A stretch of DNA of 35,513 bases from a virus. Location: positions 1 to 35,513 of IMG/VR virus record IMGVR_UViG_3300007074_000004. One strand, given 5' to 3'. The notes under the pieces were generated by a model, which did not search any database, had not been told where the DNA came from, and worked only from the letters and a program-made list of their open reading frames with translations. Made by a program: the position numbers and the translations under genes. Below are positions 1,921 through 29,756 of this stretch, piece after piece; position 1 is the first letter of the stretch, and each line of letters begins with the position of its first letter.

Positions 1921-1949
1921 ATTATACCATACTTTTAATCCTTTGTCAA
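1921..1949 (-). promoter_or_regulatory. Late promoter 1 (sigma-70 type, extended -10)
   Basis: On the minus strand the -35 box is TTGACA (1949-1944), then a 17-base spacer, then TATAAT (1926-1921) preceded by TGG, giving an extended -10. A run of A with few T lies directly upstream of -35 and could act as an UP element. It points at the small terminase about 100 bases away and would drive the head gene cluster. The arrangement is near-identical to the site at 25842-25870. Confidence 0.9.
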
Positions 1950-2471: not shown

Positions 2472-2500
2472 TTGACATCCCGAATATAGGGGTTTATGGT
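2472..2500 (+). promoter_or_regulatory. Early promoter, plus strand
   Basis: TTGACA (2472-2477), a 17-base spacer and TATGGT (2495-2500) fit a host sigma-70 site with a perfect -35 and a weak -10. It is about 40 bases upstream of the first plus-strand gene and is the best candidate for starting the early transcript. The spacer carries CCC and GGG triplets around GAATATA, which could be a weak operator dyad. Confidence 0.7.
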
Positions 2501-2538
2501 TATATCTAGCAACACCACAACAAACGAAAGGTATTAAG

Positions 2539-3120
2539 ATGAAAATATTAAACAGAGAAGATTATCTAAACCAAGCAAGTGATATCATACTGGCTGGCTT
2601 GTTCGTTAAGGCTGGTTATGACTTGCCTGACAAACTACGCTTGACGTGTGGCCTGCCGAGCAAGGGGGCATTCGGTGCTAAACTACGCACCATTGGGCAA
2701 TGCTGGTCTCCAGCCGCATCTGATGATAATACAACCGAGATTATGATATCTCCAACCGTTGACGATAACCAAATGATGTTGGGAGTATTGGTTCATGAAT
2801 TGGTACATGCTGTTGTAGGCAATCAAGCGGGACATGGCAAGGTGTTTAAACAGTGTGCTATAGCTGTAGGCTTAACAGGTAAGATGACAGCCACAACATC
2901 AACCGATACTTTGATTGACTATCTTCAAACCAATGTCATTGCCGTGCTAGGTGACTATCCACACGCGAAAATTGATTACACTAAGCAGAAAAAGCAAACC
3001 ACGCGCATGATAAAATGTGAGTGTGGGACTTGTGGCTATGTTGTAAGAACATCGCGTAAGTGGGCGGAGATTGCTCTACCTATATGTGGGGTATGTTCGG
3101 AAACCATGCAGGTTGTTTAA
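2539..3120 (+). CDS. SprT-like zinc metalloprotease
   Basis: A SprT-family protein of 193 residues. The zinc site HELVHA is at residues 86-91 and is followed by GHG (98-100), the usual third-ligand region. A C-terminal zinc ribbon has C160, C162 and C165, then C183 and C186. Cellular relatives (Spartan, SprT) act on DNA-bound proteins; phage relatives are common but mostly uncharacterised. It is the first gene of the early arm, preceded by AACGAAAGGT as ribosome site. The first RNA leader element begins directly after its stop codon. Confidence 0.88.
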   Translation: MKILNREDYLNQASDIILAGLFVKAGYDLPDKLRLTCGLPSKGAFGAKLRTIGQCWSPAASDDNTTEIMISPTVDDNQMMLGVLVHELVHAVVGNQAGHGKVFKQCAIAVGLTGKMTATTSTDTLIDYLQTNVIAVLGDYPHAKIDYTKQKKQTTRMIKCECGTCGYVVRTSRKWAEIALPICGVCSETMQVV

Positions 3121-3170
3121 CTATCTATCAAGGCATTGTTTAAACAGTGTCTTGATGGGCTGGTTTAGCC
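3121..3170 (+). ncRNA. Two-hairpin RNA leader element, copy 1
   Basis: Hairpin 1 pairs CAAGGCATTG (3129-3138) with CAGTGTCTTG (3145-3154) around TTTAAA, ten pairs including two G-U. Hairpin 2 pairs GGCT (3158-3161) with AGCC (3167-3170) around a five-base loop. The element starts right after the SprT stop and ends 23 bases before the next ATG. Further copies lie at 3376, 4124 and 5071. There is no T run, so it is not an ordinary terminator. Confidence 0.8.
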
Positions 3171-3193
3171 TCTACAAACGAAAGGTTTTAAAA

Positions 3194-3373
3194 ATGATTA
3201 TTACTGAAGTTACAAAAAGAAATACACTCCCTGTAAAATACATTGTAAACTTATACGCAAACGAAGATGCGCTTACACCACTATCAACACACATCTTTAA
3301 TAAAAAGATACATGCAGAACAAGGTGCGATCGATTTTAAAGAGATGTACGAAGCATTGCGTAGAGACTGGTAA
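3194..3373 (+). CDS. Small early protein of unknown function (59 aa)
   Basis: I do not recognise this protein. It is soluble-looking and mixed charge, with no cysteine and no membrane segment. The start ATG follows an ACGAAAGGTTTT ribosome site, the same non-standard type seen before the SprT and 5490 genes. It lies between leader copies 1 and 2, so each copy could set the translation or mRNA processing of one small gene. Longer in-frame starts upstream would run through leader copy 1 and are not credible. Confidence 0.65.
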   Translation: MIITEVTKRNTLPVKYIVNLYANEDALTPLSTHIFNKKIHAEQGAIDFKEMYEALRRDW

Positions 3374-3375
3374 AG

Positions 3376-3425
3376 CTATCTATCAAGGCATTGTTTAAAC
3401 AGTGTCTTGAGGGGCTAGTTAAGCC
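3376..3425 (+). ncRNA. Two-hairpin RNA leader element, copy 2
   Basis: This copy is nearly identical to copy 1. Hairpin 1 is the same sequence, and hairpin 2 keeps GGCT and AGCC around a changed loop (AGTTA). It starts two bases after a stop codon and ends 22 bases before the next ATG at 3448. Confidence 0.8.
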
Positions 3426-3447
3426 AAACAATATAAGGGAATACATT

Positions 3448-3594
3448 ATGACTCACTCATTTACACTAGACAACACAAGAGGCACGATTGACAATTACGG
3501 ATGGATACAGTGGCACACTATCAACTGTCATGTTGATAGCTTACAAGATACCTCAGAATTGAAGCAAGTGGCTTTGTCTACTTTAATTAAATAA
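3448..3594 (+). CDS. Small early protein of unknown function (48 aa)
   Basis: A 48-residue frame starting at ATG 3448, behind ATAAGGGAATAC as ribosome site. The product is hydrophilic, rich in Thr, Asp and His, with WIQWH near the middle. It matches no family that I recognise. It is the gene directly downstream of leader copy 2. An upstream in-frame start at 3391 lies inside the leader hairpin and is rejected. Confidence 0.55.
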   Translation: MTHSFTLDNTRGTIDNYGWIQWHTINCHVDSLQDTSELKQVALSTLIK

Positions 3595-3616
3595 CTTATA
3601 TAAAGGAATTATTATT

Positions 3617-4111
3617 ATGACAACAATACCAGCAAGCAATAGAACCAACAATTTATTAATGGCACGGACACGCTTAAGCGACTTTGTTACACGTAAGGCG
3701 CAACACGTGACACGTATAACGGGCGTAAACTATGAAGAGTGTGACAATGCACCTGATTCATTCGACACGGTAAAAGAATGCTTTAAAGCCGCACTACGTA
3801 ACGTTCAGCCTTATAAAGTATATAAAGGTGCAAGTGTTAATACCATCTATCTAAAGCCACACCATAATTGGGCGTTCAGATTTTGGCATGATTACCTTCA
3901 TTTTGTACGTGATTTAGACTTTAGCACTGAGCATGAAATTAGGGTAGGACAAATACAAATGGCAGAAGTAGCACAGGAATTTGGACTTGGTTCGCTTGAG
4001 TATCTTTTAATGGAAATTGACACGGTTAAGCAGGTGGAGCATTTTACACGCACTGGGCAATTCGTAGAAAATCAATTAGAATTCGCACTTGAACATTTAG
4101 AAATTGATTAG
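3617..4111 (+). CDS. Conserved-looking phage protein, function unknown (164 aa)
   Basis: A soluble 164-residue protein. The most distinctive stretch is HNWAFRFWHDYLHFV (about residues 77-91), followed by STEHEIRVGQ. That pairing of aromatic and His/Asp residues looks like a conserved core, and I have the impression of related proteins in other phages, but I cannot assign a function. AAAGGAATT provides a ribosome site. No leader element precedes it; leader copy 3 follows its stop by 12 bases. Confidence 0.75.
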   Translation: MTTIPASNRTNNLLMARTRLSDFVTRKAQHVTRITGVNYEECDNAPDSFDTVKECFKAALRNVQPYKVYKGASVNTIYLKPHHNWAFRFWHDYLHFVRDLDFSTEHEIRVGQIQMAEVAQEFGLGSLEYLLMEIDTVKQVEHFTRTGQFVENQLEFALEHLEID

Positions 4112-4123
4112 CATAATCATTTT

Positions 4124-4163
4124 ACAAGGTGTTTAAACAGCATCTTGTGGGGCTGATTAAGTC
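4124..4163 (+). ncRNA. Two-hairpin RNA leader element, copy 3 (diverged)
   Basis: Hairpin 1 pairs CAAGGTGTT (4125-4133) with AGCATCTTG (4139-4147), plus an extra outer A-T pair. Compared with copy 1, a C-G pair has become T-A and an A-T pair has become G-C, so pairing is kept by double changes. Hairpin 2 is GGCT (4151-4154) and AGTC (4160-4163) around GATTA, with one G-U pair. It ends 21 bases before ATG 4185. Confidence 0.8.
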
Positions 4164-4184
4164 AACAACAATGGAGATATTGAA

Positions 4185-4406
4185 ATGAATGATTTTAAAA
4201 TTACTAGTATGTGGTATGTCGATGACATACTTTCACTCAATGACACCTTATCAGAAGAGCAATGTATTGATGTTTTAAAGCTGGGTGAAACATACCACGA
4301 TGCAAATGTGGGTTATAATTGGGACTATTGGGAAGCTACAATTGAAACTTACTTAGCTATAGTTAAGAGAGAAAACTTTGTCCAAGATTGTAATAATGAA
4401 ACATGA
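4185..4406 (+). CDS. Small acidic early protein, paralogue of the 5490 gene (73 aa)
   Basis: Function unknown. The first 60 or so residues closely match the product of 5490-5684: both share DILSLNDTL, CIDVLKLGE and YHDANVGYNW. This copy has a longer C-terminus. The acidic, compact make-up is typical of small phage proteins that bind host proteins, but that is only a guess. GGAG at 4173 serves as ribosome site and also lies inside a five-codon upstream frame (4171-4188) whose stop overlaps this start. Leader copy 3 precedes it. Confidence 0.72.
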   Translation: MNDFKITSMWYVDDILSLNDTLSEEQCIDVLKLGETYHDANVGYNWDYWEATIETYLAIVKRENFVQDCNNET

Positions 4407-4482
4407 TTGGATTTTATACTGTATAATTGCTATTCTATCCTATTTGTGTTATGGTGCATTAATTACGTGGCTGGATTCTTGA
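4396..4482 (+). CDS. Tiny single-helix membrane protein (28 aa)
   Basis: ATG 4396 overlaps the end of the preceding gene by 11 bases. The 28 residues begin MKHDW and then form one hydrophobic helix (ILYCIIAILSYLCYGALI), ending TWLDS. The stop overlaps the first TGAATAGGTA repeat. No clear ribosome site is visible, so translation would depend on coupling. It is one of five such frames in the early region. Confidence 0.42.
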   Translation: MKHDWILYCIIAILSYLCYGALITWLDS

Positions 4483-4568
4483 ATAGGTATTTGAATAGGT
4501 AACACAGTTAATTTGCCATTCATAATCAATCATTTAGCATTTATTATGAATAGGTACCTGAATAGGTA
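4480..4568. repeat. Four-copy TGAATAGGTA cluster with internal dyad
   Basis: TGAATAGGTA occurs at 4480-4489, 4492-4501, 4547-4556 and 4559-4568: two pairs, each with a 12-base period, 67 bases apart. Between the pairs ATTCATAAT (4518-4526) is the reverse complement of ATTATGAAT (4543-4551), whose right arm overlaps the third copy. The cluster ends 20 bases before ATG 4589. Such spacing suits cooperative binding by a regulator or initiator protein. No function is shown. Confidence 0.85.
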
Positions 4569-4588
4569 AATTATAAAGGGGAAGTAAA

Positions 4589-5002
4589 ATGAAACCATTT
4601 AATAGTAGTAGATTGAAAGTAATAATTGATGTAATGCAACGGGCGTTGGATGTGGATAAACCGTTTCATATGGAAACTTGGCAAGACTCTTGGAATGGAA
4701 CATCGACTACGGAAGCAGAACTCCACACCTGTGGTATGTCCGCCTGTGTTGGTGGACATTTAGCAGTAAGTCCAGAGTGGAAGCACCACGGTGGTGAGGT
4801 TGGTGATGGTGGTATACCCGTATATTATGGTGCTGTTGGGTTTCAAGCGATTGCGGATTATTTAGAATGTCACATTCAATGCGCGGAAATGATTGTAAAC
4901 CCTGAGCAATCTGAATATTTTTATAAGGTGTACTTTGAGGCAGTGACCCCACAAATAGTAGTCAACAGATTAAATGAATTATTAGAAAGTGGGGATTGGT
5001 AA
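4589..5002 (+). CDS. Phage protein with CGMSACVGGHLA motif, unknown function (137 aa)
   Basis: The central segment HTCGMSACVGGHLAVSPEW (about residues 46-64) resembles a motif common in uncharacterised phage and plasmid proteins that carry a Cys-x-x-x-x-Cys pair followed by Gly-Gly. The rest is soluble, with a Gly/His-rich turn and an acidic C-terminus (ELLESGDW). AAAGGGGAAG is a strong ribosome site. The TGAATAGGTA cluster directly upstream suggests its own control. Its stop shares a base with the next tiny frame (TAATG). Confidence 0.72.
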   Translation: MKPFNSSRLKVIIDVMQRALDVDKPFHMETWQDSWNGTSTTEAELHTCGMSACVGGHLAVSPEWKHHGGEVGDGGIPVYYGAVGFQAIADYLECHIQCAEMIVNPEQSEYFYKVYFEAVTPQIVVNRLNELLESGDW

Positions 5003-5070
5003 TGTTTTTAAAATTTATTATCAGTTTGGTGGTTGTTTTCCTAACATCTCGCATTATGCAAGCGGTTTAA
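5002..5070 (+). CDS. Tiny membrane peptide (22 aa)
   Basis: TAATG couples this start to the preceding gene. The 22 residues, MFLKFIISLVVVFLTSRIMQ plus AV, form one hydrophobic helix with a short polar end. Leader copy 4 begins at the base after its stop, the same relation as copy 1 to the SprT gene, which supports this stop as a real gene end. The frame is short, so confidence is limited. Confidence 0.42.
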   Translation: MFLKFIISLVVVFLTSRIMQAV

Positions 5071-5116
5071 CTATCTTTCAATGCCTTTAACAGGGTATTG
5101 TGGGGCTATCTAAGCC
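5071..5116 (+). ncRNA. Two-hairpin RNA leader element, copy 4 (diverged)
   Basis: Hairpin 1 pairs CAATGCCT (5079-5086) with GGGTATTG (5093-5100) around TTAACA. Relative to copy 1, one G-C pair has become T-A and one A-T pair has become C-G, again keeping the stem. Hairpin 2 keeps GGCT and AGCC around ATCTA. The CTATCTTT lead-in matches CTATCTAT of copies 1 and 2. It ends 38 bases before ATG 5155. Confidence 0.8.
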
Positions 5117-5154: not shown

Positions 5155-5457
5155 ATGGCACTAATCAGAGTAGTAAACGAATCAGAAGGTATGAGAATGT
5201 TATTATCAGATGAGTATGCTAATTGGACTTACTACCAAGCACAGGCATTACTTGAATACTATGAGCAATACAGTGAGGACACAGGGAAAGACTTAGAGCT
5301 TGACTTAGTAGCCATTAGATGTGAATGGGCAGGTTATGCCAGCATTAAAGAAGCCCTTGAAGACCATGGTAGCCCAATCACTTGGGAGGACTTACAAGAG
5401 CAGACAGGTACCATTGAGGGGCTTAATGATGGTTCTGTGTTAGTCCATGAATTCTAA
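5155..5457 (+). CDS. Small acidic phage protein, unknown function (100 aa)
   Basis: ATG 5155 follows CAGGAGATACATATATC, a good ribosome site; in-frame codons upstream run into leader copy 4 and are rejected. The product is very acidic and helical (YYQAQALLEYYEQYSEDTG). It ends with a segment like those of small phage proteins of unknown function (ITWEDLQEQTGTIEGLNDGS). The charge would suit binding to a host nucleic-acid-binding protein or DNA mimicry, which is speculation. Confidence 0.7.
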   Translation: MALIRVVNESEGMRMLLSDEYANWTYYQAQALLEYYEQYSEDTGKDLELDLVAIRCEWAGYASIKEALEDHGSPITWEDLQEQTGTIEGLNDGSVLVHEF

Positions 5458-5489: not shown

Positions 5490-5684
5490 ATGATGTTAGA
5501 TTTTAAAATTACTAGCTCTTGGGACATTAAAGACATACTTTCACTTAATGACACCTTAACAGAAGACCAGTGTATTGATGTTTTAAAGTTAGGTGAAAAA
5601 TACCACGATGCTAATGTAGGTTATAATTGGGAATATTGGACGGCTACAATAGATAATTATCTTGCTTCAAATGAGAGGTATTAA
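5490..5684 (+). CDS. Small acidic early protein, paralogue of the 4185 gene (64 aa)
   Basis: This is a second copy of the 4185-4406 protein: the cores DILSLNDTL, CIDVLKLGE and YHDANVGYNW are shared, and the DNA is also close, so the duplication is fairly recent. The C-terminus is shorter and ends NYLASNERY. Two adjacent ATG codons (5490, 5493) are possible starts; the paralogue aligns from the second. The 23 bases across the start (5478-5500) are repeated exactly at 5834-5856. Confidence 0.72.
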   Translation: MMLDFKITSSWDIKDILSLNDTLTEDQCIDVLKLGEKYHDANVGYNWEYWTATIDNYLASNERY

Positions 5685-6665: not shown

Positions 6666-8329
6666 ATAAAGGTACACCAGTATATAAAACTTCCTGTCCT
6701 GAGTGTGGTAGTTCTGATGGGAAGCAGATATTTGAGCAAGAGGATGGGAGTTTAGATGCGTTCTGTTTTGCGTGTCTAAGCGTTTCTAATGAGCTAAGTG
6801 AGGGGGTAGGTATGGTAGGAGGTAGAAAGTCCGTTACAGAGCCACTACGTGCGTCTGAGGGCTATATTACAGTAGAAGAGATAGGCAAGTTACCTAGTGA
6901 TGGCTTCAGAAGTATTAAAAAGCAGGTTGTAGACCTCTTTAATGTTAAGGTTGGTTACAGTAAGAGTGATGGAAGTACGATTGTTAAGCATTACTATCCT
7001 ACTACTAAAGAGGGATTAGTAACAGGGTACGAGGAACGTACTGTATTAGATAAGGGTTTTCGTAGTGTAGGTGACAGAAAAGGAGATGTAGAGTTATTTG
7101 GAACAACACTAGCTAAACGTAATGGGGGTAAGAAGTTGTTTATTACTGAGGGTGCTTGTGATGCTATGGCTTTATACCAAGCTATTGTTATTCATACAGA
7201 CCCTAAGTATAAAACATTTAAACCTAGTGTAGTATCTCTAACACGAGGGGTTACCTCAGCAGTTAAGGATATTCTTAACAATAGGGCGTTCGTAGAGTCT
7301 TACAATGAAGTTATTTTAGTGTTAGATAATGATGATGCTGGTAAGAAGGCTGTTAAGGATGTTCTAAAGACCTTTCACACCTTCAAGGTGGCAGAGCTAC
7401 CCCTTAAGGATGCTAACGCTATGCTGGAGGCTGGTAGAACTCAAGAGCTGTATCAAAAAGTCGTGTGGGATAGCCAACCAGTACGACAAGGTGAAGTGTT
7501 GGATGTGTTAGACTTCATTGATAAAGCTTTAATTAAACCTGAGATGGGTATCAGTTTTCCATGGCCTACAGTCACAAAGGCTTGCTTTGGTATCAGGCCA
7601 CATAACATTCACATAGTTGGAGCAGCTCCTAAGATTGGTAAGACAGACCACCAACACCAGTTAGTAGAACATTTGATTTATAAAGAGAACACTAAGGTTG
7701 GTATGTTTGACCTTGAGAATGCACCAGCTAAGACAGCTAAGAAATTAGCAGGTAAGCATGATAAGGTTGATTACAGTAGACCAGATATTGAATATGATAT
7801 AGAAGACTTACGCAATACGCTAACAGATATGAATGGTAGGGTAAGGTTCTATGACAGGTTAGCTAGTCGTGATTGGAATGATATACGTATAGCCATTGAA
7901 GAGATGCACCTACTTGATGATATTAATATCTTTATCATTGACCCATTGACAGCATTGATTAGTAGGTATGCTAGTAGTGAAGCTAATGATAAACTCAATG
8001 AGATTATGACCGACATGGCAGACTTGGTTATGAAGTATCCAATCTCAATCTTTTGTTACAGTCATGTTAACCCTAAGCCTAAGACCTCTACACCCCATGA
8101 AGCAGGTGGTAAGGTACTAAGTTCAGAGTTTACAGGTAGTAGAGCGATGGAGAAGTGGGCTCATTATGGTCATGGTATTAGTCGAGACAGGACAGAGGAT
8201 TGTGAACCAGCTCGTAAGAATATGAGTGAGTTCAGGATGCTATTTGATAGAGACTTTGGACAAGGGTACAGTTGTGATGTATACTTTGATGAGAGAACAA
8301 TTACTTACTTAGAAGTGAAGGGGTACTAA
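6662..8329 (+). CDS. Bifunctional DNA primase-helicase (T7 gp4/Twinkle type)
   Basis: The protein unwinds DNA and primes lagging-strand synthesis at the phage fork. A zinc site has C12, C15, C35 and C38. The TOPRIM core has ITEGACDAM (Glu163) and LDNDDAG (Asp222, Asp224). The RecA-like helicase has Walker A GAAPKIGKTD (320-329), Walker B FIIDP (Asp427) and CYSHVNPKPK with SSEFTGSRA further on. The length (555 residues) is near that of T7 gp4 (566). It comes directly before ThyX and the polymerase, a usual order in marine podoviruses. The Walker A Lys and all four zinc Cys are present, so both activities are expected. Confidence 0.92.
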   Translation: MNKGTPVYKTSCPECGSSDGKQIFEQEDGSLDAFCFACLSVSNELSEGVGMVGGRKSVTEPLRASEGYITVEEIGKLPSDGFRSIKKQVVDLFNVKVGYSKSDGSTIVKHYYPTTKEGLVTGYEERTVLDKGFRSVGDRKGDVELFGTTLAKRNGGKKLFITEGACDAMALYQAIVIHTDPKYKTFKPSVVSLTRGVTSAVKDILNNRAFVESYNEVILVLDNDDAGKKAVKDVLKTFHTFKVAELPLKDANAMLEAGRTQELYQKVVWDSQPVRQGEVLDVLDFIDKALIKPEMGISFPWPTVTKACFGIRPHNIHIVGAAPKIGKTDHQHQLVEHLIYKENTKVGMFDLENAPAKTAKKLAGKHDKVDYSRPDIEYDIEDLRNTLTDMNGRVRFYDRLASRDWNDIRIAIEEMHLLDDINIFIIDPLTALISRYASSEANDKLNEIMTDMADLVMKYPISIFCYSHVNPKPKTSTPHEAGGKVLSSEFTGSRAMEKWAHYGHGISRDRTEDCEPARKNMSEFRMLFDRDFGQGYSCDVYFDERTITYLEVKGY

Positions 8330-9009: not shown

Positions 9010-10821
9010 ATGGAATGTGTATTTGATATTGAGACAGATGGTCTAAACCCCACAAAGATACATTGTATGGTGATAGACGGGCTAGCTATTACAGATTATC
9101 AAGAGATGAGAGACTGTTTAAACAAAGTGTCAACCTTAGTTGGTCACAATATCATACGATATGACATACCTGTATTAGAAAGACTACTAAATATAACTAT
9201 CAAGGCTACGTTAGTGGACACATTAGCATTGTCTTGGTACTTATACCCAACGAGGGCTAGGCATGGGCTAGCACATTATGGGGAGGACTTCGGTATCCCT
9301 AAGCCTAAGGTTGATGATTGGGAAAACCTACCACTAGAGGAGTATGTGAACCGATGTAAGGAAGATGTGAGGATAAATACCTTACTCTGGAAGTTACAGA
9401 AGGGGGACTTAGATGCACTATATGAGGGTAAATACAATGACTTAGTAGAATACCTAACCTTCAAGATGACTTGTGCCAGGGGGCAAGAGGAGGAGAGGTG
9501 GAAGTTTAATGAGGTACAGGGGGAGGAGTTACTATCCTTGATGATAGAGAGACAAGACACTGCTAAAGATACATTACATTCTGTCATGCCAGAAGTTCCT
9601 AAGTATACTAAGAAAGTTAGACCTAAAGAGCCCTTTAAGATGGATGGTACTTTAAGTGTAGTTGGGGTACGTTGGAAGGAGTTAGTAGAAGAAAAGAATT
9701 TAGGGTTTGATTACCAAGGGGAAGTGCAAGTATTCCAGAGGAACTTACCACCTAATGCTAGTAGCTCTAAGCAGATTAAGGATTGGTTGTTCGCTTTAGG
9801 GTGGGTTCCAGCTACTTTCAACTTTGTAGATGATAGACAGGTACCTCAGATTAAAAACAGTAGTGGTATGTTATGTTCTTCTATTGAGAATATGATTAAA
9901 GACCACCCAGAGTTAGCTAGTCTATCAGACTTGGGGGTACTTGGACACCGTATAGCGATTGTTAAGGGGCTCTTAGAGTCAGCTAAGAAGGGTTATGTAG
10001 TGGCAGGTATACAAGGCCTAACAAACACCTTAAGGTTTAAGCATAAGACTTGTGTTAATATACCTAGCTTACGTAAACCTTATGGGGAGGAGATTAGAAG
10101 TTTACTAACAGTTAGAAAGGATACTAATGAATTAATTGGTAGTGATATGTGCAGTCTTGAGGATAGGACTAAGCAACATTATATGTGGAGTCATGATGCA
10201 GAGTATGTAAAAGAGATGATGGTAGAGGGCTTTGACCCACACCTAGACATTGCAGTAGCAGCTAATATGATGACACAAGAGCAAGCTAACCAATACAAAG
10301 AGGGAGGTAAGACTGAGGTACTAGATAAGATTAGGTACAACGCTAAGACAGCTAACTATGCCTCTACCTATGGTGCTGGTGCAGCTACTATCGCAAGGCA
10401 AGCAGGGATGAGTGAGAGGGAAGCTAGGAAACTACATAAAGCTTATTGGGAACGTAATTGGAGTGTTAAGGCTATTGCAGAGGAGAGTATAGTAAAGAGT
10501 ATTAAGGGTAAGACGTGGTTGTATAACCCAGTGAGTAAGTTTTGGTACTTCTTAAAGGCTGATAAAGATAAGTTCAGCACCCTTAATCAAGGGACAGGTA
10601 CATTCTTATTTGATATGTGGGTTAAGGAACTAAAGAAAGGTGGGGTTAGGATACTAGGGCAGTTCCACGATGAGGTCATTGCTGAGGTTAAGCAAGGCCA
10701 ACAAGAGAAGGTGAAAGAATACTTTAAGCTAGCTGTACAGGAAGTTAATAACAAGTTCAGCTTGAACAGAGTCTTGGATGTAGATGTACAGTTTGGTAAG
10801 AATTATGCAAGTATACATTAG
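9010..10821 (+). CDS. Family A DNA polymerase with 3'-5' exonuclease domain
   Basis: The replicative polymerase. The exonuclease domain has FDIETDGL (Exo I), GHNIIRYDIP (Exo II) and YVNRCKEDVRIN (Exo III). In the polymerase domain motif A is SDMCSLEDR (Asp379), motif B has RYNAKTANYASTYG and motif C is FHDEV (His553, Asp554). The residue aligned with E. coli Pol I 762 is Tyr450, as in T7 (Tyr526). ATG 9010 is preferred because the GAGGA box is nine bases upstream; a TTG at 9001 touches that box. There is no 5' nuclease domain; a separate gene at 11568 supplies it. Confidence 0.95.
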   Translation: MECVFDIETDGLNPTKIHCMVIDGLAITDYQEMRDCLNKVSTLVGHNIIRYDIPVLERLLNITIKATLVDTLALSWYLYPTRARHGLAHYGEDFGIPKPKVDDWENLPLEEYVNRCKEDVRINTLLWKLQKGDLDALYEGKYNDLVEYLTFKMTCARGQEEERWKFNEVQGEELLSLMIERQDTAKDTLHSVMPEVPKYTKKVRPKEPFKMDGTLSVVGVRWKELVEEKNLGFDYQGEVQVFQRNLPPNASSSKQIKDWLFALGWVPATFNFVDDRQVPQIKNSSGMLCSSIENMIKDHPELASLSDLGVLGHRIAIVKGLLESAKKGYVVAGIQGLTNTLRFKHKTCVNIPSLRKPYGEEIRSLLTVRKDTNELIGSDMCSLEDRTKQHYMWSHDAEYVKEMMVEGFDPHLDIAVAANMMTQEQANQYKEGGKTEVLDKIRYNAKTANYASTYGAGAATIARQAGMSEREARKLHKAYWERNWSVKAIAEESIVKSIKGKTWLYNPVSKFWYFLKADKDKFSTLNQGTGTFLFDMWVKELKKGGVRILGQFHDEVIAEVKQGQQEKVKEYFKLAVQEVNNKFSLNRVLDVDVQFGKNYASIH

Positions 10822-28715: not shown

Positions 28716-29756
28716 TTAAATCACCACCCATCTGCCGTCAACCGTCACGGTATAAGTATCAGCAATTGTAATATCACCAATAGACATCCCATTTGTATCT
28801 GACGGTATTGTTATATTTTCACTGATAGTTTGTGCATTTGTTCTAATAATGCTATCAGTACCTAGACTAGGACCTCCACCTGCAATTGTCCCCCAGGAGG
28901 CAGCAGAGCCGTCAGTACCTAAGTATTTACCAGCGTGTGTAGCTTGTGCAGGAAGTGCATCCACAACTCCCCAAGAGGTAGCAGAACCATCAGTGGTTAA
29001 GAACTTCCCTGTGTTCCCTGTTTGTGTAGGTAGAGTATCCCCATCAGCTCCAGCTGCGCCTGTAGCCCCTGTAGCACCTGTAGAGCCTGTAGGGCCAGCT
29101 ACTGTAGAGTCAGCTCCTGTAGAGCCTGTAGCCCCTGTAGCACCTGTAGAGCCTGTAGCACCTGTAGCACCTGTAGGAAGTCCTAAACTTAGAACCCCTG
29201 TACCTGAACTGTAGCTAGAGGTAGAAGAGCCTCCAGCAGCTACCGTAGTGGTTGCTGTGGTTAAGGCTGTTAGTTCAGCTGCACTTGCTGCTGCATTCGA
29301 TTCTGAGGTACTTGCTTCACTTGCTTTAGTTGTAGCGATACCTGCTTGAGTAGTTGCTGTAGAAGCTGAAGTACTTGCCTCCCCAGCCTTGGTTGTAGCA
29401 ATGCCAGCTTGAGTTGAAGCTGTACCTGCTGAGGTACTTGAGTTTGACTCGCTTGTAGCTGCATTCGATTCTGAGGTACCTGCAGCGCTCTCTGACGCAC
29501 TTGCGTTCGTAGCTGAGGTACTTGCATTGGTTTCAGAAGTTAACGCGTTAGACGCGCTTGTAGAGGCCTCTGAAGCCTTAGTGGTAGCTTCGCTTGCTTT
29601 AGTTGTTGCTGTACTTGCGGAACCACTTGCACTTGTTTCTGAGACTAATGCTTCATCTCTATACCTTTTAGCATCTGTTGAAAACCCAGCTACTTCATCC
29701 CGTGTTACATCTGTGGATGAGTCACCAGACCCACCAGAACCTCTATAAATTGCCAT
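28716..29756 (-). CDS. Main tail fibre with Ala/Ser/Thr repeats and collagen-like region (346 aa)
   Basis: The N-terminus [20 protein letters not shown] is typical of podovirus fibres. Residues 41-160 are a low-complexity helical repeat ([21 protein letters not shown] units). Residues 194-240 are collagen-like Gly-X-Y ([16 protein letters not shown]). Two copies of GK(F/Y)L-TDGSA-SWG follow at 250-263 and 276-289. The C-terminus ends GRWVVI, with receptor binding likely left to the small proteins behind it. It is the first gene after the capsid. The DNA repeats make it prone to slippage and assembly collapse. Confidence 0.85.

Follow-up and report, generated by a model that had tools for sequence, protein, structure and literature searches.

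A recurrent intercistronic element with two competing predicted RNA folds at gene ends in phage early operons

The early operon of the phage studied here raises the question of why one and the same structure recurs four times between its small genes. The window, that is, the whole stretch of DNA that was analysed, is a complete phage genome from IMG/VR of 35,513 bases with a direct terminal repeat of 90 bp. It encodes a DnaB/Toprim primase-helicase and DNA polymerase A, giving a T7-like replisome, together with ribonucleotide reductase, thymidylate synthase, a 5'-3' exonuclease, endonuclease I and a terminase; a GenBank search for close relatives of the phage found none. An initial annotation had described the repeats as two-hairpin RNA leaders between early genes. 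The coordinates of the four copies, of the parts into which we divide them (P0, linker, P1, tail and P2) and of the neighbouring genes are collected in Table 1.

Table 1. Coordinates of the four element copies and of the early-operon features around them.
Feature	Position	Strand	Evidence	Remarks
Early promoter TTGACA-17-TATGGT	2472..2500	+	consensus scan, 10/12	conserved in L026 and L027; next gene without element
SprT-like gene, gene 1 of early operon	2539..3120	+	Pfam SprT-like 2e-5, slightly under curated cut-off; PHROG 6361 1e-40	
Element copy 1	3117..3170	+	direct-repeat family, covariance model, folding	P0 5' strand 3117-3123 (stop TAA 3118-3120), linker 3124-3129, P1 hairpin 3130-3153, tail 3154-3157, P2 GGC 3158-3160, loop 3161-3167, GCC 3168-3170
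59-aa gene 3' of copy 1	3194..3373	+		no family match
Element copy 2	3372..3425	+		P0 3372-3378, P1 3385-3408, P2 3413-3415/3423-3425
48-aa gene 3' of copy 2	3448..3594	+		
164-aa gene, followed by copy 3	3617..4111	+	PHROG 33646/7806	function unknown
Element copy 3	4113..4163	+		P0 4113-4119, P1 4126-4146, P2 4151-4153/4161-4163 (GGC/GUC)
73-aa gene 3' of copy 3	4185..4406	+		paralogue 5490-5684, 79% identical in DNA
22-aa small hydrophobic ORF, followed by copy 4	5002..5070	+		
Element copy 4	5067..5116	+		P0 5067-5073 (stop TAA 5068-5070), P1 5080-5099, P2 5104-5106/5114-5116
100-aa gene 3' of copy 4	5155..5457	+	PHROG 9974	

Several other features of this genome were recorded in passing. 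A perfect sigma-70 consensus promoter (TTGACA-17-TATAAT with TG; 1921-1949, minus strand) faces the leftward genes, and a non-coding block of 480 bases (2028-2507) lies between the divergent operons, about 90% conserved with contig L026, more than one adjoining stretch (81%) in the same comparison. Positions 2308-2329 (22 bases) are complementary, with one mismatch, to positions 9270-9291 of the polA gene, both partners being kept in L026, and could possibly encode an antisense RNA to polA. At 29026-29185 (minus strand), a gene that reads leftward within the structural half carries nine-base tandem repeats of the GTAGCACCT type, a collagen-like repeat; the gene probably encodes a fibre protein.

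All four copies were recovered where they had first been placed, both as a direct-repeat family (D5) and with cmsearch. Run over the window with filters off, cmsearch gave four matches of 59-68 bits (E 1e-11 to 1e-13), scores that are not independent because all four copies are among the sequences from which the model was built; the next best match had 11 bits, and no fifth copy was found above chance in the window genome. On the plus strand, copies 1 to 4 fold with z values of -6.4, -5.2, -4.9 and -3.0 relative to shuffles, while the corresponding values on the minus strand (-2.1, -0.8, -1.2 and -0.2) are barely or not better than shuffles. The recurrent structure was thus correctly recognised, but its true start lies about 4 nt upstream of the one first given and takes in the stop codon of the preceding gene.

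The search for relatives that had been proposed found homologues in other phages, with covariation. These were located by pattern scans of IMG/VR, with patterns that were short and exact, so that more diverged relatives would be missed. Beyond the window there are 13 full and two partial copies in five other phage contig groups (five in L308, two in L330 = L316, three in L359 = L361, two in L362, and one full plus two partial in L026), and the distinct full copies total 17 with the four of the window. In each contig the elements are confined to one early-region cluster. The carriers differ, since L359 encodes a Sak annealing protein, YqaJ and SSB, L308 encodes a DUF1376 primosomal gene and L362 has a different terminase, and therefore the element crosses phage types. 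No family of Rfam 15 matched at its gathering threshold, in agreement with the initial remark that a described RNA of this form was not known. GenBank phages gave no copy at a usable E-value; plasmids, searched with one element query, and a pattern scan of genome contigs gave one match each, both attributed to chance (the latter in a Hylemonella MAG); and among the matches listed for the IMG/VR pattern TTTAAAC..GGGCT-N5-AGCC there were only known copies and chance matches. Contigs with relatives of the helicase and SprT genes are many, but only the nearest ones carry elements. As a separate observation, L308 (~250-690), L359 (~6980-7410, minus strand) and L362 (~2985-3400, minus strand) share a 430-base block, 83-97% conserved among these phages, that shows few coding signs, adjoins a divergent HTH gene and has no Rfam match; it is possibly an unlisted regulatory RNA or an origin.

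Pairing was scored for three helices in an alignment (A2) of 17 sequences, whose hand-corrected register holds 16 full copies with a 7-nt loop and the partial copy L026c. For the whole structure, paired cells and covariation exceeded those of 500/500 shuffles and of every slid control. The core of P1 is paired in 112/112 cells, with many double-sided changes, 25 G·U cells and no A·C: pair 3 occurs as G-C, A-U or U-A, pair 6 as C-G, A-U or G-C, and pair 7 is always U·G. Both observations that the initial annotation had made on four copies, stem changes on both sides and G-U pairs at constant positions, hold over the larger set, the former over 17 copies and the latter with U·G at the top in 16/16 and G·U at pair 4 in 9/16. 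P0 consists of seven bases around the upstream stop codon, which pair with the 7-base loop of the second hairpin in 101/119 cells. A whole-loop permutation in fixed register gave p 0.0076 with relatedness ignored, which we prefer to the p 0.017 of a best-of-window permutation because the register was set by homology and not by best pairing. Pair 6 of P0 is paired in 17/17 sequences, as C-G, U-A or U·G (p 0.007, relatedness ignored), and pair 7 shows one A-U to U-A swap; many copies have mismatches in P0, chiefly at pair 5 (9/17). The partners of the six linker bases are the tail and the two G's of GGC, with 89/102 cells paired (permutation p 0.004 for linker pair 4, relatedness ignored). P2 (GGC/GCC) is paired in 51/51 cells and shows no covariation, its pairing being indicated by conservation only. 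For the motif first given as GGCT-N5-AGYC, the notation GGC-N7-GCC is to be preferred; its loop is complementary to the region of the upstream stop codon. Kissing between the P1 and P2 loops was rejected, as it fits copy 1 only.

Summed over all helices, 75 G·U cells stand against 6 A·C. Since G·U so far outnumbers A·C, the plus-strand RNA is the selected form, as had been proposed, and the strong folding z values are likewise found on the plus strand only. Comparison of the copies thus shows a plus-strand RNA structure at the gene ends of early operons, conserved by selection.

Some letters are invariant beyond what pairing needs: the top U·G already mentioned, a UAA in the P1 loop region, and GGC..GCC. 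A binding site for an RNA-binding protein, of the phage or of its host, through which the early-gene set is co-regulated could explain them, and also why the element is common to phages with different replication genes; in Cluster K mycobacteriophages such a protein partner has been considered for the SAS/ESAS repeats (PMC3203893). However, no candidate protein common to all carriers turned up in a non-systematic look at genes of which most small ones are unnamed, and we hold such a site to be improbable.

P0, linker and P1 together form a long hairpin that has P1 as its top, contains a conserved bulged C and reaches 20-24 bp in the best copies. GGC-N7-GCC is an alternative hairpin made from its 3' strand, which competes with its base. 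In a nested fold P0 and P2 are mutually exclusive, and the two G's and the loop are common to both folds; a pseudoknot holding P0 and P2 simultaneously would be compatible with what these tools can predict. The long hairpin is the predicted minimum in 4/4 window copies and in 11/17 copies overall, whereas P1+P2 is predicted to be better or equal in 6/17 at 37 C, and the energy gap between the two folds reaches 7 kcal/mol in some copies and is about 0 in others. The two-hairpin form originally described therefore survives as one fold, but not as the sole fold. Among the copies of L026, a partial one without P1 keeps P0 in 7/7 pairs, and one without GGC/GCC still folds a long stem with other letters.

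The stop codon of the upstream gene occupies nucleotides 2-4 of P0 in 15/19 copies (with L330g in its homologous register; 14 as first tabulated) and lies within a few bases of that place in the remaining ones. Read-through of the stop codon was rejected because the upstream and downstream gene frames disagree. Downstream, the next start codon mostly follows P2 after 20-38 nt; in the window, for which 21-38 bases had been reported, the gap counted from the second hairpin is 23, 22, 21 and 38 nt. The element is thus locked more tightly to the upstream gene end than to the downstream start, and the term leader is imprecise. Translation control was one of the three functions initially suggested; in the form of a hidden ribosome site it finds no support, since the element ends so far before most starts and the Shine-Dalgarno region is predicted to be largely unpaired.

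These two properties, a stop codon at a fixed place and two exclusive folds with shared parts, could also belong to a switch that works without cleavage, in which a terminating ribosome opens P0 and lets P2 form, the long hairpin being the fold otherwise. Such a switch would tune Rho access, ribosome recycling or re-initiation and make each small gene independent of its neighbour, and the always-paired P1 starts some 10 nt past the stop codon, close to where the footprint of a terminating ribosome would end. We regard it as rather unlikely: the next ribosome site is mostly open, the energy gap varies from about 0 to 7 kcal/mol across copies, unlike that of a tuned switch, and the L026 copies without P1 or P2 persist.

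No element precedes the gene that comes first after the promoter (window 2539, the SprT-like gene; L026 4963; L027 426). The L027 homologue of the 100-aa gene that follows copy 4 in the window lies directly behind the promoter and has none, and of the two paralogues at 4185-4406 and 5490-5684 only the first has an element upstream. Its absence from the first gene ties the element to gene ends within a polycistronic message and argues against a promoter-proximal leader. This bears on an antitermination signal like HK022 put, a second initial suggestion. As in put, two adjacent hairpins are possible on nascent early-operon RNA, and the elements have neither a T run, as first noted, nor a terminator. 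The put site sits in a promoter-proximal leader. The present elements, in contrast, occur between genes only and are absent between promoter and gene 1 in all three arrangements, the early operon yielded no convincing terminators, and the window copies are predicted as one long hairpin instead of two stable stem-loops, all of which makes this the most improbable reading that we considered. Promoter-like matches had no consistent place in the elements, and a promoter inside the element was rejected because the TTG..TACAAT spacing of copy 4 is not kept in other copies.

The elements also mark places where related genomes part. Homology between the window and L026 runs to 2507 and resumes from 5086, inside copy 4, and that between the window and L027 jumps from 2515 to 5116, the final base of copy 4. 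Copy 4 is 94% identical to L330:3226-3275, which lies between unrelated genes. Element identity among copy 4, L330f and L308d is 92-94%, but their 100-base flanks are at or near the shuffled background (~0.57). Because the elements are near-identical, their flanks unrelated, and homology breaks at the element, we conclude that these phages exchange early genes with the elements at the joints, and the elements appear to double as short homology for the exchange of small early genes. Another early gene with its following leader (window 4396-4593) is 93% identical overall to its counterpart in L330. Within that region we noted a second conserved intercistronic block (window 4483-4590, L330 4530-4640), which the two phages share at more than 90% identity along with the small membrane-like gene that precedes it (MKHDW..). 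The block contains GAATAGGTA repeats and a 9-bp hairpin (ATTCATAAT..ATTATGAAT), and in the window it folds no better than shuffles (z 0.0).

Near-identical copies between unrelated genes of unrelated phages, a cassette-like array of small ORFs behind one promoter with no copy before the first, and inverted ends (TTAAC..GTTAA) would all suit a purely DNA-level mobile or recombination site, similar to integron attC or to REP, of which the RNA structure would be a by-product. The likeness to attC is that of a palindromic element between small ORFs behind a single promoter. But attC recombines via the bottom strand and has a GTTRRRY core, whereas the G·U bias points to selection of the single-stranded plus-strand form, the loops (UGAUUAA, UAUUUAA and UGCUUAA) do not conserve the core GTT, and no integrase was seen among the window proteins scanned, a subset of all. 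On strand bias and core letters we rejected attC itself, and we consider a DNA-level site in general very unlikely.

The reading that we favour, tentatively and at somewhat less than an even chance, is that of a cis-acting intercistronic element which processes the polycistronic early mRNA and protects the resulting ends at the 3' ends of genes, in the manner of the early RNase III sites of T7, and which also serves as a homology joint for early-gene shuffling. Of the three functions initially suggested, that of an RNase III-type site agrees best with the structure when the lower stem is taken into account. Sites of this enzyme are imperfect duplexes of about two turns, often with an internal loop, against which the helix measures 20-24 bp in 11/17 full copies, with P1+P2 preferred or equal in 6; this length is near the minimum for RNase III. 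The 3' strand would be cut near the bulge, by RNase III of the host or by a similar enzyme. P1 would then stay on the upstream messenger as a protective 3' hairpin, and the downstream messenger, having lost its pairing partner, would refold its new 5' end into a protective P2. A cut at the place corresponding to that in T7 R1.1 would leave P1 upstream and free GGC-N7-GCC as a 5' hairpin, which would explain the conservation of both folds. A ribosome terminating at the embedded stop might shield P0 and the linker, postponing the cut for as long as the upstream gene is read.

Another reading, which we regard as possible but doubtful, sees here a new family of bistable intercistronic RNAs in which the presence of a ribosome terminating at the embedded stop would determine the fold, and which would provide a common 'socket' in unrelated phages, probably of one host group, making tiny early genes exchangeable yet independently expressed.

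The element constitutes an undescribed RNA family that shows real covariation and occurs in several lineages of phages. With it comes a testable reason for the free gain and loss of tiny early phage genes, namely the same RNA at each gene end, with which any new junction would already be equipped for processing and would offer homology for the next exchange. The natural partial mutants that have lost P1 or P2 can be used to dissect its function.

Among known repeats, the ESAS of Cluster K mycobacteriophages are inverted repeats with 17-bp arms and a spacer of 4-13 bp, found upstream of a subset of non-structural genes and of unknown function (PMC3203893). They resemble the present element in being repeated inverted repeats, but are tied to a 13-bp start-site sequence of the downstream gene, whereas the element is tied to the upstream stop and has two competing folds; the SAS/ESAS 13-mer (GGGATAGGAGCCC) was not seen in a visual look at the element leaders. 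The promoter early stem-loops (PeSL) of T4-like phages combine an early promoter with a terminator stem-loop (Arbiol 2010, Comeau 2014, as cited in PMC4503421). As outlined there, they are repeated stem-loops between small early genes at gene-exchange borders, where the element also lies; unlike PeSL as described in that account, it has no consistent early promoter and no terminator stem-loop with a T run.

Closest in arrangement to the reading as a processing element are the early RNase III sites of T7 (R0.5, R1, R1.1 and R1.3), which are likewise early-gene hairpins in plus-strand RNA between an upstream stop and the next ribosome site, in a phage whose replication genes are similar to those of the window. 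The T7 intercistronic hairpins have a stem of 9-10 bp of the AAGGUC..GGCCUU type, with an AAGG start in 3/4 sites, and at two sites the stem lies 8-14 nt past the upstream stop. In R1.1, which is cut once (PMC4858673), the order of pairs is nearly that of the AAGGCAUU subtype of P1 (p 0.001-0.005, post hoc), whereas the CC subtypes are unlike T7 stems. Since the family model gave no match over the T7 early region, the element may be said to work like the T7 sites without being a member of them. It differs from them in having the stop codon inside the structure, a conserved competing GGC-N7-GCC and near-identical copies in unrelated phages, and its cleavage is putative.
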